DNA of 64,000 nt from contig NZ_BAKN01000003.1 of assembly GCF_000614205.1 (NCBI RefSeq), forward strand, positions 62,001 to 126,000, written 5' to 3'. Positions within the stretch are counted from its first letter, which is position 1; each line of letters starts with the position of its first letter. The stretch is from Hoylesella saccharolytica JCM 17484. Lineage in GTDB: Bacteria; Bacteroidota; Bacteroidia; Bacteroidales; Bacteroidaceae. The notes beneath the pieces are model-generated. The model was not told the DNA's origin. It did not search any database and saw only the letters and a program-made list of their open reading frames with translations. The translations under genes and the position numbers were made by a program. Below, one piece after another: positions 47,536-59,767 of the stretch.

Positions 47536-49561
47536 TTACCATAACGACAACCGTTGGTTTTTAGGAATAAAGAGTTTATCGCCCTCTTTCACGCCAAATG
47601 CATCATACCAAGCATCAATATGCGGCAACGCACCATTTACGCGCCATTCGCCCAATGCATGTGGGTCGCGTTTTGTACGGTTACGAATTTCCAGTTCGGT
47701 AATATTCTGTCCCCAAACACCCGCATATGCAAGAAAGAAACGCTGATCGGGTGTAAAACCGTCGATTGTTTTGAGATGCTTCTTTGCTGTAGCATTTTTA
47801 AAAGCCTGATAACTTACCTGCAAACCACCATGGTCAGCAAGGTTTTCGCCCAGTGTAAAGCGACCATTCGCATTGAGGTCAGGTAACACTTTAATGTTCG
47901 AGAAGAAGTCGGCATACATATCGGCACGCTCTTCAAACCCTTTTGCATCAGTGGCTGTCCACCAATCTTTCATATTTCCGCTGTCATCATACTGTCGACC
48001 TTGATCGTCAAACCCGTGCGTCATTTCATGACCGATAACCACACCGATAGCACCATAATTAAATGCCTCGTCGGCCTTCGGATCGAAGAACGGACGCTGA
48101 AGAATACCAGCGGGGAAACAAATTTCGTTGGTTGTTGGATTGTAATAAGCGTTTACCGTCTGCGGAGTCATATACCATTCATCGCGGTCAACCGGTTTTC
48201 CTGCTTTTTCCTCGATATGCCGATTATGCGAGAAATTGCGACACGCCATTACGTTTTCATAATACGATTTCTGCGGGTCAATAACCAGCTTCCCATAATC
48301 AATCCATTTGTTGGGATACCCAATCTTCACATAAAACTTGTCCAACTTTTTGTGTGCGGCAGCCTTTGTCGTGTCGCTCATCCACGTTTGTGCATCGATG
48401 CGTTGCCCCAACGAAATTTGCAGATTGCGTACCAATTGTTCCATCATCTTCTTAGACGACTCGGGGAAATATCTTGCCACATAAATCTTGCCCAGCGCCT
48501 CTCCCATCTGTGCTTCCACTTGATTGGTAGCGCGTTTCCACAGCGGATAATCCTCTTTTCTGCCGCTCATTGTTTTGCCGAAGAAGTCGAAGTTGGCTTC
48601 GCGAATTTCATCGCTTAGGTACGAGGCTGAATTCTGGATAACATCCCATTCCATCAGTGCGCGCAAGTCGTCGGCCGTAGCTGCGGCATAAATTTTATCA
48701 TATCCCGCCATAAACGCAGGCTGTCCCACTACTATTTCCTGAATATAAGCCGACTTTACACCTTCGGCATTAGCCATTTTCTCGAGTGGAATATTGGGGT
48801 ATAGCTCCTGAAATTCTTTCAGCGTCATCTTATTGTAATTGGCTTGCGGGTCGCGCAATTCGGTAACACTCTTCGATACCAATGCCAACGCTGTTTCTGC
48901 ACGAAATACGGCATTAGCCTTTCCGTAGCCTGCGCTTCAGAGAAACCATAGAGGCAAAACATCCGTACAAGATGTTGCTTATAAGCCTCGCGAATAGTAA
49001 CCGTAGCAGCATCGTTATTGAGATAATAATCTTTCTGACCTAATGTCAAACCGCTCTGACCAAGACTTAAAATATTTGTCGTAACATTCTTTTCATCGGC
49101 TGCGAAATACGAAGCAAATCCTACCCCATAACCCTCGACAGCATATTTCAATTGCAACTGTTGCAGGTCGGCTTTGGTTTTAGCAGCTCCATTTCATTAA
49201 GCAGAGGTTTAACAGGAGTCAAGCCCTCGCGATTGCGTCGTTCCGAGTCCATCGCTAGCTTGTAAAAGTCGGATAACTTTTGCTCCATCGACCCGTGCTT
49301 ATAGTTCTTCTTCAGTAAATCGCTCAAAATCGAGTTGATGCGCTTGTTATTGTCTTCCTGCAACTGGTCAAAGCTGCCAAAGCGCGAGTAAGCTGCCGGC
49401 AACGGATTTCTTTTTTGCCATCCGCCCGTTGCGAACTGATAAAAATCATCGGCGGCACGTACCGACTTGTCGAGATTTGCCGGGTCGATACCCGATTTGC
49501 CTTGTGCCATCCCCACCACCGGGGCGGCCATCATCATCATCGTCATCATCAAATGTTTCAT
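47536..49561 (-). CDS. M13-family zinc metallopeptidase (PepO/neprilysin-like), two frameshifts
   Basis: A signal peptide (MKHLMMTMMMMAAPVVGMAQ) is followed by the large helical domain of M13 peptidases. The C-terminal catalytic domain has VIGHEMTHGFDDQGRQYD (HExxH zinc site), the third-ligand motif GENLADHGG, and the substrate-binding VNAYYNPTTNEICFPAG. The frame is broken near 49188-49190 (restored: NEMEAAKTKADLQQLQLKYA) and at the T3 run 48920-48922 (restored: ATEKANAVFRAETALALVS). With both single bases added the protein has 675 aa, normal for the family. It should act in the periplasm or at the surface on peptides. Monocistronic, with its own terminator. Confidence 0.9.
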
Positions 49562-49833
49562 ATTCTTTTTTATTATAAAATAGTGTCTTGCTATGCTTGG
49601 TTACCTCCAAAAACTTCTTTCAAGAGTAAATGAAAGGTATTACCAGTATAAGATAAATAGCATTTCATTGGCGACAAATATACAAATATTTTTCCACACC
49701 GTTATATGCGCTGCTACATTAATCTCACCAATAAAAACGGTTGTCAGCATCGGCAAACATATAAACTTTACATCCCATACACTTTGTGTTGTGCATGGTA
49801 TCACCAATATTTAATTACTTTCGTTCTTTTTCT

Positions 49834-50739
49834 TTATTGAGAAGAGGTGTCGGTAAAATCATCGGATATATCAGAAACAGAATCAGAAAGAATGGAATTA
49901 GCTTTCGTGTCTTTTGACTGAAAGTCTTCATTCTCATCATCTTCCATAAAGATTTCATCTGTCTCAGGTTCTAAATCTTCAACCTTTGCATGTGCTTTTT
50001 TCTGTGCTATACTTGCCTTGTGTGATGTTCGTAAATCAGCCGAAACTTGGTTCATCTCATTTACAAGCTTCAACACCAAAGCTTTGTCGTCTTTCTTTGT
50101 TGCTAAAAGATATGCCGCCTGAACATATTGGCATATAACTTCGAAGTATTCATCTGTTTCGCGACGCACGCTACGCGAATTAGGCAGTTTTGTTTCCACC
50201 GCATCTTTTCTTCGTTGTGATTCAAGCTTCTCATATTCCTCATTTAGCTTTTTTAGTTGTGTTAAAACCGGTTCCAATCCCAACGCTGTAACTTCTGCCG
50301 TAAGTTTATCCGTATCTTTAAGAAGGCTCAAAATATGTATGCTTTCTATCGACTTAATTCCGCGCTGAATACCAAAATAAGGTTTTAAGGCAATATATAG
50401 TTTTTCAGCCGCCATCTTTTCTGCTTCCAGAAATGAAATTCGATAAGCTCTAACCAACGAAAAAAGTTGTGTAAGTACATTATCTCGCTCATGGTCTTTT
50501 AAATCTAATTCTTTAGTTATCACTGATGCAGCCGACTCTTTAACAATATCAATCTCCAGGTCAATACTAGCTTTCCACGAAGCCAATAAGTCGGCGGCGA
50601 TATTAAGTTTGCTCGATTCTACTTTTGAAACCAAATCGTATTGTACACGATGAAACTCTGTGTGCAACGCATTGTTGAAACTGTAGAGATACGTTTTTCT
50701 AAAGCGTACCATCTTTGGTAAAAGATTGTCTGTTTTCAT
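49834..50739 (-). CDS. DUF6261 family protein
   Basis: This 301-aa protein is mostly helical, from MVRFRKTYLYSFNNALHTEF to QRRKDAVETKLPNSRSVRRE, with a highly acidic C-terminal tail (EPETDEIFMEDDENEDFQSK). This matches DUF6261, a family seen in Bacteroidota and often found beside repeats. No signal peptide, membrane helix or catalytic motif is seen; function unknown. Its start faces the 42-bp tandem repeat array. Confidence 0.65.
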   Translation of the reverse strand: MKTDNLLPKMVRFRKTYLYSFNNALHTEFHRVQYDLVSKVESSKLNIAADLLASWKASIDLEIDIVKESAASVITKELDLKDHERDNVLTQLFSLVRAYRISFLEAEKMAAEKLYIALKPYFGIQRGIKSIESIHILSLLKDTDKLTAEVTALGLEPVLTQLKKLNEEYEKLESQRRKDAVETKLPNSRSVRRETDEYFEVICQYVQAAYLLATKKDDKALVLKLVNEMNQVSADLRTSHKASIAQKKAHAKVEDLEPETDEIFMEDDENEDFQSKDTKANSILSDSVSDISDDFTDTSSQ

Positions 50740-50982
50740 AAGTTATAAAATTTAAAATATAATAATTAAGTTTTCATCATTAACAACCTTCTCACATTTT
50801 CAGATAGATTATTACCATGATATAAAGTAGATTAAAATTATTTTTCTGCTTAATATAAAAAGATTATCTATTGCATCAAAAAAACTTTTATTCAAGGTTA
50901 TATATCTGCAAATATAGCTCAAAAAAAATATTATGCATCAAATAACTGTAATATTTATAAAAAAAACTTTTTATTCATTAGT

Positions 50983-51233
50983 GCAGCAGTATAAAACAGG
51001 TTCAAAAAATTTTTATTGCTCTGTACAGTAGTGAAAATAGGGTTCAAAAAAATTTTATTGCTTTTTGCAGTAGTGAAAGTAGGGTTCAAAAAAATTTTAT
51101 TGCTATGTGCAGTAGTGAAAATAGGGTTCAAAAAAAATTATTGCTCTGTATAGTAGTGAAAGTAGAGTTCAAAAAATTTTTATTGCTATGTGCAGTAGTG
51201 AAAGGAGGCTTCAAAAAAATTTTATAGATATAC
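50983..51233. repeat. Six-copy 42-bp tandem repeat
   Basis: The unit begins GCAGTAGTGAAAGTAGGGTT, continues with CAAAAAAATTTTATTGCT and ends with a variable five-base stretch. Copies start at 50983, 51025, 51067, 51109, 51150 and 51192; one unit is 41 bp. The whole unit is conserved, including the parts that would be spacers, so this is not a CRISPR array. The period of 42 bp equals four helical turns. The outer copies are more diverged than the inner ones. Confidence 0.9.
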
Positions 51234-51310
51234 TTATATCTTTATCTCACAAAAATAAAGTTTATAGAGCTGTGTTATAGTTGTAATAAGGCTTTTTCAC
51301 CTATATTTAT

Positions 51311-51318
51311 TACCTTTG
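51311..51318 (+). promoter_or_regulatory. -7 promoter element of the second ABC-F gene
   Basis: TACCTTTG matches TAnnTTTG and lies 24 bp upstream of the ATG at 51342, downstream of the tandem repeat array. Confidence 0.65.
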
Positions 51319-51341
51319 CGCCTGCAAAAAATAACGAATAA

Positions 51342-53288
51342 ATGATTTCTGTAGAAGGACTGAAAGTGGAGTTTGGCGTAAAACCACTTTTTCAAGATGT
51401 AAGTTTTGTTGTAAACGACCGCGACAGAATTGCTCTCGTGGGTAAAAATGGTGCGGGTAAGTCTACCATGCTTAAAATTCTATGTGGTATGCAGAAGCCT
51501 ACGGCGGGAAATATTGCCGTTCCTGCTGACACTACGTTGGGTTATCTGCCACAAGTTATGGTGCTACAAGATGATACCACGGTAAAGGAAGAAGCGCGTA
51601 AAGCGTTTGCCGACAATATGCGCCTAAAGGAAAAGGTAGAACGGATGAATCGTGAACTGACTGAACGTACCGACTACGAAAGTGAGGAGTATATGTTACT
51701 GGTTGAACGCTTTACACAGGCACATGAGCGGTGGTTGATGATTGGTGGCGAAAATTATGAGGCAGAAATTGAACGCACATTGACAGGCTTGGGCTTTAGT
51801 CGCGAGGATTTCGACCGCCCTACAAGCGAGTTTAGCGGAGGTTGGCGCATGCGTATCGAACTGGCAAAGATTCTGTTGCGTAAGCCCGACGTATTGTTGC
51901 TCGATGAACCAACTAATCACCTTGACATCGACAGTATTCAGTGGCTTGAACAGTTTCTTGCACAGAGTTCGGGCGCAGTTGTGTTGGTTAGTCACGACCG
52001 TGCCTTTATCAACAACGTAACCAATCGCACACTGGAAATATCTTGCGGTCGGGCCATCGACTATCGCGTAAAGTATGACGAATATGTTACGCTGCGCGCC
52101 GAACGACGCGAACAGCAGTTGCGCGCCTATGAAAATCAGCAAAAAGAAATTGCCGACATAAAAGACTTTATTGAGCGGTTTCGCTACAAACCTACCAAGG
52201 CGGTACAGGTGCAGAGCCGTATCAAACAGTTGGAGAAAATTGTACCTATCGAGATAGACGAGGTCGATACCTCTGCTTTACGGCTGAAGTTTCCACCTTG
52301 TCTGCGCAGCGGCGATTATCCCATTATCTGTGACGAGGTGCGCAAGGCTTACGGCAATCATACGGTCTTTGCTGATGTTACGTTGACTATTAAGCGTGGC
52401 GAAAAGGTGGCGTTTGTAGGGCGTAACGGCGAGGGAAAATCTACGCTGGTGAAGTGTATCATGGGCGAGACTCCTTTTGAAGGTAGTCTGAAAGTGGGTC
52501 ATAACGTGCAGATAGGTTATTTTGCACAAAATCAGGCTCAGCTGCTCGACGAGCAACTCACTATCTTCGATACTATCGACAATGTGGCAAAGGGCGACAT
52601 TCGTCTGCGTATCCGTGATATTCTCGGTGCATTTATGTTTGGCGGCGAGGCGTCAGACAAGCGGGTAAAGGTACTTAGCGGCGGCGAACGCAGCAGGTTG
52701 GCAATGATTAGATTGCTGCTCGAACCTGTTAATCTGCTTATTCTTGACGAACCTACCAATCATCTCGATATGCAGTCGAAAGATGTGCTGAAAGAGGCGA
52801 TTAAGGCATTCGATGGAACTGCTATCATCGTGTCGCACGACCGTGAGTTTCTTGACGGACTTGTAACCAAAGTTTATGAGTTTGGTGGCGGAAAGGTGCG
52901 CGAACATCTCGGCGGTATCTATGACTTTATTCGCAACGCTTCGGGAAATGAAGCGTCAACAATTGAAGAGGTGGTAAGAAGTAAAGTAGAAGTTGCGAAG
53001 AGTAAGGAGGCGGATGGACTAAAGGAAGACATAAACGAAACTTATGCCGAACGGAAAGAGCGAATGAAAAAAATAACGAAGGCTGAAAAGGCGGTGAAGG
53101 AATGCGAAAGCAAAATTGCGGCGATGGAAAAGCGCATTGCTGAACTAAACGACTTGTTGATGAATCCTGCCAATGCTTCGGATATGACTCTCGTTTCAGA
53201 ATATACATCTACACAACGCGCATTGGATGCCGAAAACGAACGGTGGATGGAGCGCAGTGAGGAGCTGGAGAAACTTGCACACGAATAG
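51342..53288 (+). CDS. ABC-F ATPase (Uup/YdiF-like) with C-terminal coiled coil
   Basis: This 648-aa protein has two ABC domains. Domain 1 has GKNGAGKSTML, signature EFSGGWRMRIELAK, Walker [15 protein letters not shown] and SHDRAF. Domain 2 has GRNGEGKSTLV, VLSGGERSRL, LILDEPTNHLDMQS and SHDREF. Both Walker A sites are intact, unlike in the other ABC-F of this window. The C-terminal 110 residues form a charged coiled coil (YAERKERMKKITKAEKAVKE). No membrane segment is present, so it is a translation-type ABC-F factor, not a transporter. It is followed by tex 64 bp later. Confidence 0.9.
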   Translation: MISVEGLKVEFGVKPLFQDVSFVVNDRDRIALVGKNGAGKSTMLKILCGMQKPTAGNIAVPADTTLGYLPQVMVLQDDTTVKEEARKAFADNMRLKEKVERMNRELTERTDYESEEYMLLVERFTQAHERWLMIGGENYEAEIERTLTGLGFSREDFDRPTSEFSGGWRMRIELAKILLRKPDVLLLDEPTNHLDIDSIQWLEQFLAQSSGAVVLVSHDRAFINNVTNRTLEISCGRAIDYRVKYDEYVTLRAERREQQLRAYENQQKEIADIKDFIERFRYKPTKAVQVQSRIKQLEKIVPIEIDEVDTSALRLKFPPCLRSGDYPIICDEVRKAYGNHTVFADVTLTIKRGEKVAFVGRNGEGKSTLVKCIMGETPFEGSLKVGHNVQIGYFAQNQAQLLDEQLTIFDTIDNVAKGDIRLRIRDILGAFMFGGEASDKRVKVLSGGERSRLAMIRLLLEPVNLLILDEPTNHLDMQSKDVLKEAIKAFDGTAIIVSHDREFLDGLVTKVYEFGGGKVREHLGGIYDFIRNASGNEASTIEEVVRSKVEVAKSKEADGLKEDINETYAERKERMKKITKAEKAVKECESKIAAMEKRIAELNDLLMNPANASDMTLVSEYTSTQRALDAENERWMERSEELEKLAHE

Positions 53289-53352: not shown

Positions 53353-55498
53353 ATGAATACATTCACATCAATTATCGCTGACCGGCTGGGGCTGGAGGCC
53401 AAGAAGGTAGAAAACACACTGACTCTGCTTGAAGAGGGTTGCACTATTCCGTTTATTAGTCGGTATCGAAAGGAAAAAACGGGCGGACTGGATGAGGTTA
53501 TGATTGGTGAAATCAGCGAGTGGCGCGATCGTCTGACCGAACTGACCAAGCGTAAGGAGACTGTTTGTAAAACCATTGACGAACAGGGGAAAATGACCGA
53601 AGAGTTAAAACGCCGCATTGACGAAACGTGGGATGCCGCTACGCTTGAAGATATCTATCTGCCGTACAAACCCAAGCGGCGCACACGAGCTCAGATTGCT
53701 CGCGAGCAAGGCCTTGAGCCACTTTCTCAACTGGTTATGCTTCAGCGCGAACAAGATATAGAAGGGGTTGCTCGTCGGTTTGTGAGGGGTGATGTGAAAG
53801 ATGTTACTGCTGCACTGAAAGGGGCGCAAGATATTATCGCCGAAACAGTGAGCGAAAATGAACAGAGCAGACGTCTGGTTCGTGGAGTATTTAGTAGAGA
53901 GGCTGTGATTACCTCAAAAGTAGTTCCGTCAAAGAAAGAAGAAGATGGTGCGGCAAAATATGCTGATTATTTCGACCTTTCAGAACCTCTGCGCCGGTGC
54001 CCAGGTAATCGTTTACTGGCTATGCGTCGTGGTGAAAACGAGGGATTTCTGCGAGTGAGCATTTCTATCGATAGTGAGGAAGTGATAGAACGGTTGCAGC
54101 GTCATTATGTAAAAGGAAGTGGAAAATGTGCCCAACTTGTGAGCGAAGCTGTGGAAGATGCATACAAGCGGCTAATAGAGCCGTCGGTAGAGAATGAGTT
54201 TGCAGCCTTAAGTAAAGAAAAAGCCGACGAAGAAGCCATCGGTGTGTTTGCCGAAAACCTACGCCAGTTATTGTTGGCGGCTCCTCTGGGTCGACAGCGT
54301 GTAATGGGTGTAGACCCCGGTATTCGCACCGGCTGTAAGGTAGTATGTCTAGATGAACAAGGCAACCTTTTGTTTCATGATGTGGCATATCCTTTTCCAC
54401 CTCCTGGAAACCGATTGGCGGCGCAAGAAAAGTTCGGCACAATCGCTCTACGTTATGATGTTCAAGCTATTGCCGTTGGTAATGGAACGGCAAGCAGAGA
54501 AACGGCAGATATTTTGCGTAGCTTGTCGCAGGGCGGAGCCAAACTTCCGGTTTACGTAGTGAGTGAAGACGGTGCATCAGTTTATTCGGCATCGAAAACA
54601 GCTCGCGAAGAGTTTCCTAATGAAGATGTAACCGTTCGTGGAGCTGTATCAATTGGTCGGCGGCTGATGGATCCACTGGCCGAGTTGGTAAAGATTGACC
54701 CAAAAAGCATCGGTGTGGGGCAATATCAACACGACGTAGACCAAACCAAATTGAGAAAAAGTCTTGACACAACGGTAGAGAGTTGTGTTAATTTGGTAGG
54801 GGTGAATGTTAATACGGCGAGTGTGCATCTGCTGACATATATCAGCGGATTGGGAGCAACACTGGCGAAGAATATTGTAGAGTACCGGCGCGAAAATGGA
54901 GCATTCGCTTCACGAGCACAACTAAAAAAAAGTTCCGCGATTGGGACCTTCTGCATTTGAACAGTGTGCCGGTTTTATGCGTATTCCCGACGCCCGAAAT
55001 CCACTTGACAACAGCGCGGTTCACCCCGAGCGATATGCGCTGGTGGAACAAATGGCTAAAGATTGCGGATGTGCCGTAGTTGATCTTATCGGTAAGTCTG
55101 AACGTCTTAAACAGATAGATTTGAAACGATATGTGTCGGGTGAAGTGGGCCTCCCTACCCTAACCGATATTATCCATGAGTTGGAAAAACCGGGACGCGA
55201 TCCCCGAGAAGAACTTGAAGAATTCAACTTTGATGAGCGTGTACATGAAGTGTCTGACCTTATTCCCGGTATGATTTTACCGGGTATTGTCACCAATATC
55301 ACTAAGTTTGGTGCGTTTGTAGACATCGGCGTGCATCAGGACGGACTAGTTCATATTTCGCAACTGGCCAATCGTTTTGTGTCAGATCCTACTGAAGTAG
55401 TCAAACTGCATCAACACGTTCAGGTTAGAGTTCTGGAGATAGATATACGTCGAAATCGAATATCGCTGTCGATGAGAGATTTAAAAAGGGGAGTATAG
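53353..55498 (+). CDS. tex: Tex family S1 RNA-binding protein, frameshifted
   Basis: The protein has the Tex N-terminal helical domain (PFISRYRKEKTGGLDEVMIG), the YqgF/RNase H-like domain (RVMGVDPGIRTGCKVV), helix-hairpin-helix repeats (YISGLGATLAKNIVEYRREN) and a C-terminal S1 domain (GIVTNITKFGAFVDIGVHQD). It is a conserved nucleic-acid-binding factor linked to transcription. The frame breaks in the A8 run at 54924-54931. Removing one A gives QLKKVPRLGPSAFEQCAGF and 714 aa, normal for Tex. As all domains are otherwise intact, the break is probably a read error. Confidence 0.93.
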
Positions 55499-58772: not shown

Positions 58773-59767
58773 TTATCTTCGACCTCCAAATTGACCACTG
58801 CCTCCACTGGAATGCGAACCACCAGAGAAACCACCGCCTCCACTGCTACCACTGACAGAACGTGAACCGCCAAAACTTCCTCCGAAGCTGCCACTTCCAA
58901 AACTACTTTCTCTGTCATAGCTACGTGTTGGTGTAGACGTTTCTAAGCGTCGACCACCAAAACGACCATCATCAGAAGTGGAATATGAACGTTGGTGTGA
59001 ACGAGTTGCCCTTGAATTTTGTTCTGACCTTGAGCCACCAAACACTCCATCAAATCTACGTTCAATACCGGTACGTGAGGCAACACTTATTGGACGATTG
59101 TGATAAGTTACCACGGGGGCACTCCATCCATACCCATAATAGCCGTCGTAATAGGGACTATAGCCATAATAATAGGATCCATATCCATAATAATAGGATC
59201 CATATCCATAATAATAAGGTCTACCCCAACCATATCCGTAATAGGGATAATACCAATAATCATACCATGCGAATAGTAGCCACGCCAATAGCCTGCATAA
59301 CCACCATACCAAGGGTCGTATAAATCCCACCCCCAACGTGAGTAAGGATAGTATCCATAGTATCCAAAGAACCAAGGATCATAAAATCTGCTTACTCGGC
59401 GACTGTATATATAGTCGTCTTCATCATAATAATCTCTGTTTCTACGAGTTTTACTATACTTTTTTCTTGTTTTTCCTATATAAGAAGAATCTGGATATAC
59501 TCCTTTTTCTCTATCAAAGTCGATAATATCATTACCTATTGAATCGCTTCCTACATTCTGAGTCGCTTTATGATAAACGCCTCTACGATTATATTCATCT
59601 ATATTTCGGTTAGAACCGGCATAATAAGAATTTATCTCCCCAAAACTACTGCTAGTTATCTGATGTCTAACCGCTTTCTTAGGGATAAAATACAAATCAT
59701 CGTCCTGAGCCATTACGGTAAATGGTATGAGGGCTATCAGAACGGAAAAAATATTGATCTTTTTCAT
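58773..59767 (-). CDS. Exported Tyr/Gly/Ser/Arg-rich low-complexity protein, frameshifted
   Basis: It starts with a signal peptide (MKKINIFSVLIALIPFTVMA). A polar domain with KTRKKYSKTRRNRDYYDEDD follows, then a Tyr/Gly/Trp-rich segment (YYGYGWGRPYYYGYGSYYYG) with three copies of a seven-residue YYYGYGS unit. The C-terminus is Gly/Ser/Arg-rich and ends in SSGGSGQFGGRR. The frame changes near 59267; adding one base gives YYSHWYDYWYYPYYGYGW and 331 aa. Such proteins are seen in Bacteroidota as surface or periplasmic proteins of unknown role. It precedes the porin gene by 23 bp, so they are likely co-transcribed. Confidence 0.7.
59164..59218. repeat. 21-bp tandem repeat coding for YYYGYGS units
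   Basis: CCATAATAATAGGATCCATA plus one base (21 bp) repeats at 59164, 59185 and, in part, 59206. Being a multiple of three, it changes the number of YYYGYGS units in the exported protein without breaking the frame. Confidence 0.85.

Follow-up and report, generated by a model that had tools for sequence, protein, structure and literature searches.

The window, i.e., the 64,000-nucleotide stretch of Hoylesella saccharolytica JCM 17484 analyzed here, carries a 42-bp tandem array between a gene of the DUF6261 family and a gene for an ABC-F type ATPase (Table 1). Both genes had been named correctly in an earlier sequence-only reading, as gene calls and Pfam confirm. That reading had also described six 42-bp copies spaced at 42, 42, 42, 41, and 42 bp. 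TRF and the repeat register bear out six copies, to which a partial one (51210–51226) is added. In register, the copies start at 50959, 51001, 51043, 51085, 51127, and 51168; the spacing is exact for the starts from 51001 to 51210, the copy at 51127 being 41 bp long. TRF calls a 42-bp array at 50999–51225 (5.4 copies, 86% matches, score 342) and, on the other strand, lets it reach ~50961 (6.3 copies). The best TRF score for the array region at any period of at least 15 was 377, whereas none of 500 dinucleotide shuffles exceeded 66, and the array is thus confirmed as real. The copy at 50959 has diverged (57–69% likeness to the other copies), and the five good copies are 79–93% alike over the whole unit with no variable spacers, in agreement with the earlier statement that this is not a CRISPR. 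The unit contains one A-tract per 42 bp and no significant dyad: 0.93 of 30 shuffles were as good, as were 0.20 of 2000 in a second test.

Table 1. Genes, candidate promoters, and tandem array at the locus (positions in the window).
Feature	Position	Strand	Remarks
DUF6261 (PF19775) protein, 301 aa	49834..50739	-	Pfam E 2.1e-36
-7 box TATATTTG, putative DUF6261 promoter	50909..50916	-	Bacteroidota-type consensus match only; between array and gene
42-bp tandem array	50959..51226	.	One diverged, five good, and one partial copy
-7 box TACCTTTG, putative ABC-F promoter	51311..51318	+	Consensus match only; outside array
ABC-F type ATPase gene	51342..53288	+	Two ABC_tran stretches and an ABC_tran_Xtn domain; divergent neighbour

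Promoters of Bacteroidota follow the consensus TTTG, 19–21, TAnnTTTG. The two putative promoters in Table 1 flank the array, an arrangement that would suit an operator array of variable copy number by which both divergent genes, DUF6261 and ABC-F, are tuned, much as the sequence-only reading had considered; a third -7 box match lies on the minus strand at 51257, on the array's far side. By Pfam, the neighbours of the DUF6261 gene are an M13 peptidase and the ABC-F protein. The peptidase gene (47536–49561, minus strand) is apparently split across frames, with its N-terminal part at 49148–49561 and its C-terminal part at 47536–48888. Beyond the ABC-F gene, a Tex-like gene (53353–55498) stops at 535 aa; a 185-aa frame follows and overlaps it, which may reflect a frameshift or a misassembly. 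A separate 21-bp tandem array (59149–59216; 3.2 copies, consensus with GGATCC) has a period half of 42; arrays of 21–22 bp recur in the control stretches too.

The genome of this strain, a 2.98-Mb draft in 82 contigs, holds 10 DUF6261 genes, and a 41–42-bp array lies upstream of the gene at seven of the 10 loci, each different in sequence. The remaining three genes lie close to contig ends, with 48, 177, and 156 bp of upstream sequence. Short repeats of 7–8 bp (AAGGATG, AAAAGGTG, and TTTCACTT) are also found close to the DUF6261 genes of five own-genome loci (L029, L030, L031, L034, and L036). Among 60 related and 299 same-genus genomes, own genome included, the sequence of the window array occurs in the own genome only, at two sites. 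The second site (C78:36054–36284, 82% identity) is a gap between convergent genes; in the same gap, a different 42–43-bp array (L003:1173–1444) adjoins this sister of the window array. Outside the own genome, both searches gave matches of 24–32 bp only, which eight of the 298 other same-genus genomes have, and no array is present at the short match in genome G044. Absence from all relatives, which the sequence-only reading had taken to count against a role of the array, is therefore true of the array's sequence and untrue of the arrangement. It is a misleading test, because in relatives the corresponding place holds arrays of another sequence.

We surveyed DUF6261 genes across Bacteroidota. 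The family is patchy and often multi-copy: genomes with at least one member number 9 of 40 in the genus, 21 of 198 in the order, and 12 of 392 in the phylum (own genome included each time; in the phylum sample, 11 of the 12 lie over the family cut-off), and one genome has 18 or more paralogues. In rich genomes, the family search scores part of the candidates, so that DUF6261 counts there are lower bounds. Examined were 115 loci: 10 in the own genome, 17 from the 19 places in the genus, and 88 from the 123 other places in the order; the 35 order-level places left out were mostly weaker hits. Second fragments of other loci (L051 of L044 and L056 of L055) and duplicates (L080 of L065 and L117 of L116) were left out as well. 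Dropping the two duplicates gives 113 loci, 103 with 600 bp of upstream sequence and 10 with less. A profile search found one further DUF6261 gene, absent from the family-search results, in the control stretches of genome G472 (L152:7521–8318), with no called array upstream.

In the 600-bp upstream regions, an array of 40–44 bp is present at 68 of 103 DUF6261 loci and an array of any period at 70. The smallest period per region in these 70 is 41 bp in 32, 42 bp in 30, 43 bp in four, 40 bp in one, 30 bp in one, and 83–84 bp in two. The location is one-sided: with 500-bp flanks, 40–44-bp arrays lie upstream at 69 of 104 loci and downstream at two of 108 (L118 and L139), the count of 0/81 downstream at 600 bp being an effect of demanding 600 bp. 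In 600-bp windows, control genes of DUF6261-positive genomes carry such arrays in 17 of 693 cases, or 20 of 786 after removing overlapping frames and adding stretches; among control genes whose free upstream space is 450 bp or more, the count is 8 of 109 (Fisher p 2e-20 vs. 68/103). The 35 loci with no called array retain the same period, with 42 and 41 as the top lags of mean autocorrelation (z 5.5 and 4.5); out of 26 lags tried, 41 or 42 gave the strongest local self-match at 20 of the 35.

The pattern recurs in new data from outside Bacteroidales, where, after leaving out L295 (below the cut-off) and L301 (the same gene as L106), a 41–42-bp array was found upstream of 9 of 16 DUF6261 loci, seven within 500 bp and two reaching 600–648 bp; here too, lags 42 and 41 lead (z 5.2 and 4.5). 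In a search with the window protein, the named records found were Prevotella and one Bacteroidaceae bacterium. For instance, Prevotella oulorum has arrays of 42 bp × 8.1 (L230) and 43 bp × 2.5 (L231, at the contig start), no array was found for Prevotella sp. HJM029 (L229), and there is none in the 228 bp upstream of the match in the Bacteroidaceae MAG (L228). In Parabacteroides distasonis, L232 has a 42-bp × 4 array, and none was found at L233. Plasmid records yielded two DUF6261 genes, both in P. distasonis records labelled plasmids; one of these records has der and era beside the gene and is probably chromosome. Viral contigs yielded no DUF6261 relatives. The sequence-only reading had proposed looking for arrays near other DUF6261 genes, and they are there, at seven of ten own-genome loci and at 69 of 104 in the Bacteroidota samples; the spacing of four helical turns that it saw in one array is common to the family, with smallest periods of mostly 41 or 42. 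In short, the association of DUF6261 with the arrays is firm: the genes usually have an upstream array whose sequence is different almost everywhere and whose period is nearly always 41–43.

The rest of the neighbourhood is not shared. Within flanks of up to ~1.5 kb at the 113 loci, no neighbour gene family exceeds two members (BLASTP, E 1e-6), and the array is therefore the only constant companion found for DUF6261. Likewise, the gene beyond the array (the far-side gene) is tandem at 36 loci, divergent at 22, and outside the fetched flank at 10 of the 68. The constant partner of the arrays is DUF6261 rather than the ABC-F gene, because the orientation of the far-side gene varies, and the "divergent promoter region" in which the array was first placed is incidental. 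Both counts weigh on the variable-number operator introduced above, as does the consideration that a single general regulator would hardly read many mostly unrelated sequences; in spite of the flanking promoters in the window, we regard that explanation as very improbable.

Although the sequences differ, the units share a symmetry. Over the 68 arrays, the mean exact palindrome arm is 5.9, as compared to 3.5 in shuffled units, and arms of at least 6 occur in 54% of the units vs. 9% when shuffled; in the 37 arrays with such arms, the palindromes measure 13–26 bp. A second dyad centre follows at a distance of 20.5–21 bp (z 6.8 and 7.0 for 53 units; 6.8 and 6.6 for all 68), and the remaining offsets between 5 and 21.5 bp give z ~2 or less. 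Since periodicity plus one dyad forces a second dyad half a period away, the result is best worded as follows: the two strands of an array tend to have much the same sequence, and centres of symmetry recur at intervals of two helical turns. The same dyad spacing is seen in arrays away from DUF6261 (34 units; z 3.9 and 3.7), which are therefore the same kind of element. With four-turn spacing throughout the family and dyad centres every two turns, the proposal of a multi-site array or structural DNA element in the sequence-only reading is upheld in kind.

The DUF6261 proteins have a median length of about 250 aa (n = 99), and those outside the own genome are only 14–26% identical to the window protein (sample of 36). 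Pfam matches the window protein to DUF6261 only, with no toxin, ParB, or transposase family; six DUF6261 proteins gave no informative NCBIfam match and none in PADLOC. Modelled with AF2 from five sequences, the window protein is all-helical (pLDDT 73.8, pTM 0.49), and its acidic tail is disordered in the model. The core is approximately neutral, with a mean net charge of -1.3 over 99 proteins, and 0 for the window core as opposed to -11 for its tail. Foldseek returned no match at E <= 0.001 for this model of modest confidence, VIA gave a best Z of 10.3 to common helical bundles, which is uninformative, and sequence comparison with solved structures gave weak helical matches only. Thus, the helical model and near-neutral core would neither support nor exclude DNA binding.

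The units turn over faster than the proteins beside them. L101 and L105 proteins are 90% identical, and their units have a similarity of 9, whereas the 99th percentile for unrelated pairs is 12. Among protein pairs at least 50% identical, units exceed that percentile in 4 of 17; in L039/L047 and L050/L055, the unit is partly kept and the palindrome changed. Co-variation of protein and unit is accordingly weak, and hypervariable protein patches, from an analysis of 10 pairs, are suggestive only. Turnover of this kind would be in keeping with arrays read by shape, where hairpins or cruciforms extruded by palindromic units, or the curvature of phased A-tracts, are recognized by a general architectural protein, with expression of DUF6261 as the main target. 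Dyads and helical spacing kept while the sequence is free, different units next to the near-identical L101 and L105 proteins, and the A-tract once per 42 bp in the window all agree with this explanation. However, sister arrays share their sequence within a genome, which shape would not demand and copying would explain, and we consider recognition by shape alone unlikely.

A further alternative places the function in RNA. In type III toxin–antitoxin systems (ToxIN, CptIN, TenpIN), repeat RNA binds the protein encoded downstream, and the layout is similar, with an array directly upstream of a single protein gene, as at 69 of 104 DUF6261 loci. In the portion of PMC5086642 used here, type III antitoxins are described as constrained in unit length and variable in sequence, which the near-constant length and diverging sequence of the DUF6261-linked repeats resemble. 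Eight promoter matches upstream of arrays also mean that some arrays may be transcribed. These matches (at least 9 of 10 consensus positions) are denser after the array: on the gene strand, 13 lie between array and gene (10.3 kb), one within the array (14.6 kb), and eight upstream (15.8 kb), vs. 5, 5, and 6 in the same zones on the reverse strand. The counts are small and do no more than lean towards a DNA element; when the -7 box is taken by itself (TAnnTTTG), the outer zones show no such contrast, with 8 matches between array and gene and 14 upstream.

Other evidence also speaks against RNA. Mismatches among the 1559 palindrome pairs of 37 arrays comprise 60 G:T, 51 A:C, and 96 others, so that there is no wobble bias towards the gene-sense strand, an indirect sign against a repeat transcript. 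Palindrome loops are 0, 1, or 2 nt in 20 of the 37, i.e., shorter than 3 nt. A terminator-like hairpin, the Rho-independent feature of type III systems, stands between array and gene at only 2 of 68 loci, as compared to one on the antisense strand and none after shuffling, and none was found between the window array and its DUF6261 gene. Rfam gave no match at E up to 1 over window positions 49000–52500 and none over the arrays of 15 other DUF6261 loci (one tRNA was seen elsewhere in a locus). No ToxN, CptN, or TenpN family was matched, by the window protein in Pfam or by the six proteins in NCBIfam and PADLOC, and repeats are not conserved between the close L101 and L105 proteins. Type III toxin–antitoxin systems share the layout and fail three tested features; we would give an RNA-level system very little credence, and the array likely acts as double-stranded DNA.

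Arrays of the same kind are also found away from DUF6261. In a local BLAST comparison of 74 DUF6261-linked and 44 other arrays, same-sequence partners were found mainly within one genome: linked–other pairs reach 70 bits in 4 of 338 same-genome comparisons vs. 1 of 2655 between genomes, or, without the truncated locus L172, 3 of 331 vs. 1 of 2589 (Fisher p 0.005). The pair L034–L172 was rejected as an orphan sister array, L172 being a truncated DUF6261 locus with its own array. Its first 400 positions (L172:1–400) hold a DUF6261 gene of ~50 aa that ends in a stop followed by short repeats and matches L034 at 98% identity over 49 aa. In the single-contig genome G472, the L100 array occurs at four sites and the L126 array at three, own site included. 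Of seven sister-array contexts, four are between convergent genes and three between tandem genes; sister arrays often between convergent genes do not make a plain promoter regulon. Genome G472 has 16 such arrays away from DUF6261 in 400 kb. Within the genus, 730 kb of DUF6261-negative genomes contain eight arrays at four spots and 805 kb of positive genomes 10 arrays at 10 spots, and a link between DUF6261 presence and array density is not convincing. Genome G016, with no detectable DUF6261, has two clusters of three 41-bp arrays (L188:2765–3433 and L189:17–615), one array of which resembles the DUF6261-linked array L036 of the window's genome.

Such dispersal raises the question of whether the arrays are a minisatellite or MITE-like repeat, shaped by slippage and recombination, for which the DUF6261 upstream regions are a tolerant or ancestral home. 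Arrays beside housekeeping-like genes (recognized by eye from the first residues), between convergent genes, and in genomes that lack DUF6261 are in keeping with this idea, as are units that change faster than proteins. There is also a precedent in the phylum. As described in the part of PMC4596501 drawn on here, Porphyromonas gingivalis, a member of Bacteroidales, has tandem repeats of 41 nt (PgRS/MITE464) and 23 nt (BrickBuilt), in roughly 10–20 copies per genome, bounded by IS5-like terminal inverted repeats; the PgRS MITEs thus hold 41-nt tandem repeats, and 41-nt arrays as such were already known in Bacteroidota. A link to DUF6261 is not mentioned in that part of PMC4596501. Unlike PgRS and BrickBuilt, the DUF6261-linked arrays have an IS5-like motif at their ends in 5 of 68 cases, vs. 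6 in shuffles. Exact flank inverted repeats of at least 9 occur at 8 of 68 loci vs. 2.4% of mismatched-locus controls (mean 6.6 vs. 6.2), a slight excess in a few loci and not a general feature. A mere dispersed repeat is also hard to reconcile with the one-sided location, with a rate far above that of genes with long free upstream space (8 of 109), and with a period and dyad spacing that are locked while the sequence is free. We hold this origin to be a serious but rather doubtful alternative.

The reading we favour, tentatively and at somewhat less than an even chance, is that the array and the DUF6261 gene form a two-part unit in which the array is the cis half, a binding array probably for the DUF6261 product. 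In general terms, it can be rationalized as follows. (i) The array would work as double-stranded DNA, offering a row of sites that face one side of the helix at intervals of ~two turns; it would be two to ten units long, close to the promoter of the gene and probably outside the transcript. (ii) An oligomeric protein would assemble cooperatively on it, the likeliest candidate being the DUF6261 product, for autoregulation, nucleation of a complex, or both. (iii) Sister arrays of the same sequence would be further places visited by that product. The array, its association with DUF6261, the locked period, the dyad centres of the family, the sister arrays, and the lack of a recurrent neighbour gene in the fetched flanks are observations, and from there we infer that a protein binds, that DUF6261 is the binder, and what the binding does; direct binding by DUF6261 is the economical choice, and its chances seem to us about evenly balanced. 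Against a binding array stand the occurrence of such arrays without DUF6261 and the near-identical L101 and L105 proteins with unrelated units, which are awkward for sequence-specific recognition; fold searches with the DUF6261 model, itself of modest confidence, named no DNA-binding relative. The lack of a significant dyad in the window unit, a protein that is not basic, sister arrays between convergent genes, and the promoter matches upstream of arrays count against it as well.

Among known architectures, the F plasmid centromere comes closest, and the array may work like such a site. In the portion of PMC6238139 used here, parS/sopC consists of twelve 43-bp tandem repeats with ten 16-bp inverted repeats bound by ParB. 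Similarly, DUF6261-linked repeats are 40–43 bp long with palindromes throughout the family, although the window unit itself has no significant dyad. Unlike parS/sopC, the flanks of the 113 loci contain no recurrent ParA-type gene, the window protein matches no ParB family in Pfam, and the arrays stand upstream of the gene, with many different ones per chromosome. REP sequences with RAYT (tyrosine transposases), in the part of PMC3733652 consulted, are palindromic extragenic repeats between tandem and convergent genes that flank a dedicated gene. The DUF6261 arrays are likewise palindromic, dispersed between tandem and convergent genes, and found beside a dedicated gene, but DUF6261 has no transposase family match (Pfam) and the tandem period is fixed.

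An extension of the two-part unit, which we judge improbable although worth stating, is a set of mutually orthogonal protein–array pairs, in which each DUF6261 paralogue would recognize and gather its own dyad array and its sisters at distant sites, as in a centromere-like addressing that dispenses with ParA. If true, such pairs would help to shape the chromosome, and their palindromes and protein surfaces would diverge so as to prevent cross-talk. Keeping period and symmetry across a phylum while replacing the sequence at nearly every locus is a rare pattern, and taken together the data point, within Bacteroidota, to a protein and a DNA element whose partnership had gone unrecognised. No function has been described for DUF6261, and the array gives a first handle on its role. 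In open-licence full texts, the DUF6261–array link did not appear in search listings, and the word DUF6261 occurs in one paper alone, whose title is on an unrelated subject. Direct and cheap tests are feasible in a culturable gut species. Within the own genome, five of the paralogues (L029, L030, L031, L034, and L035) have a near-identical C-terminal tail, made of a Gly/Lys-rich linker and a small domain, behind N-terminal domains that differ; the shared tail looks as it might after gene conversion.
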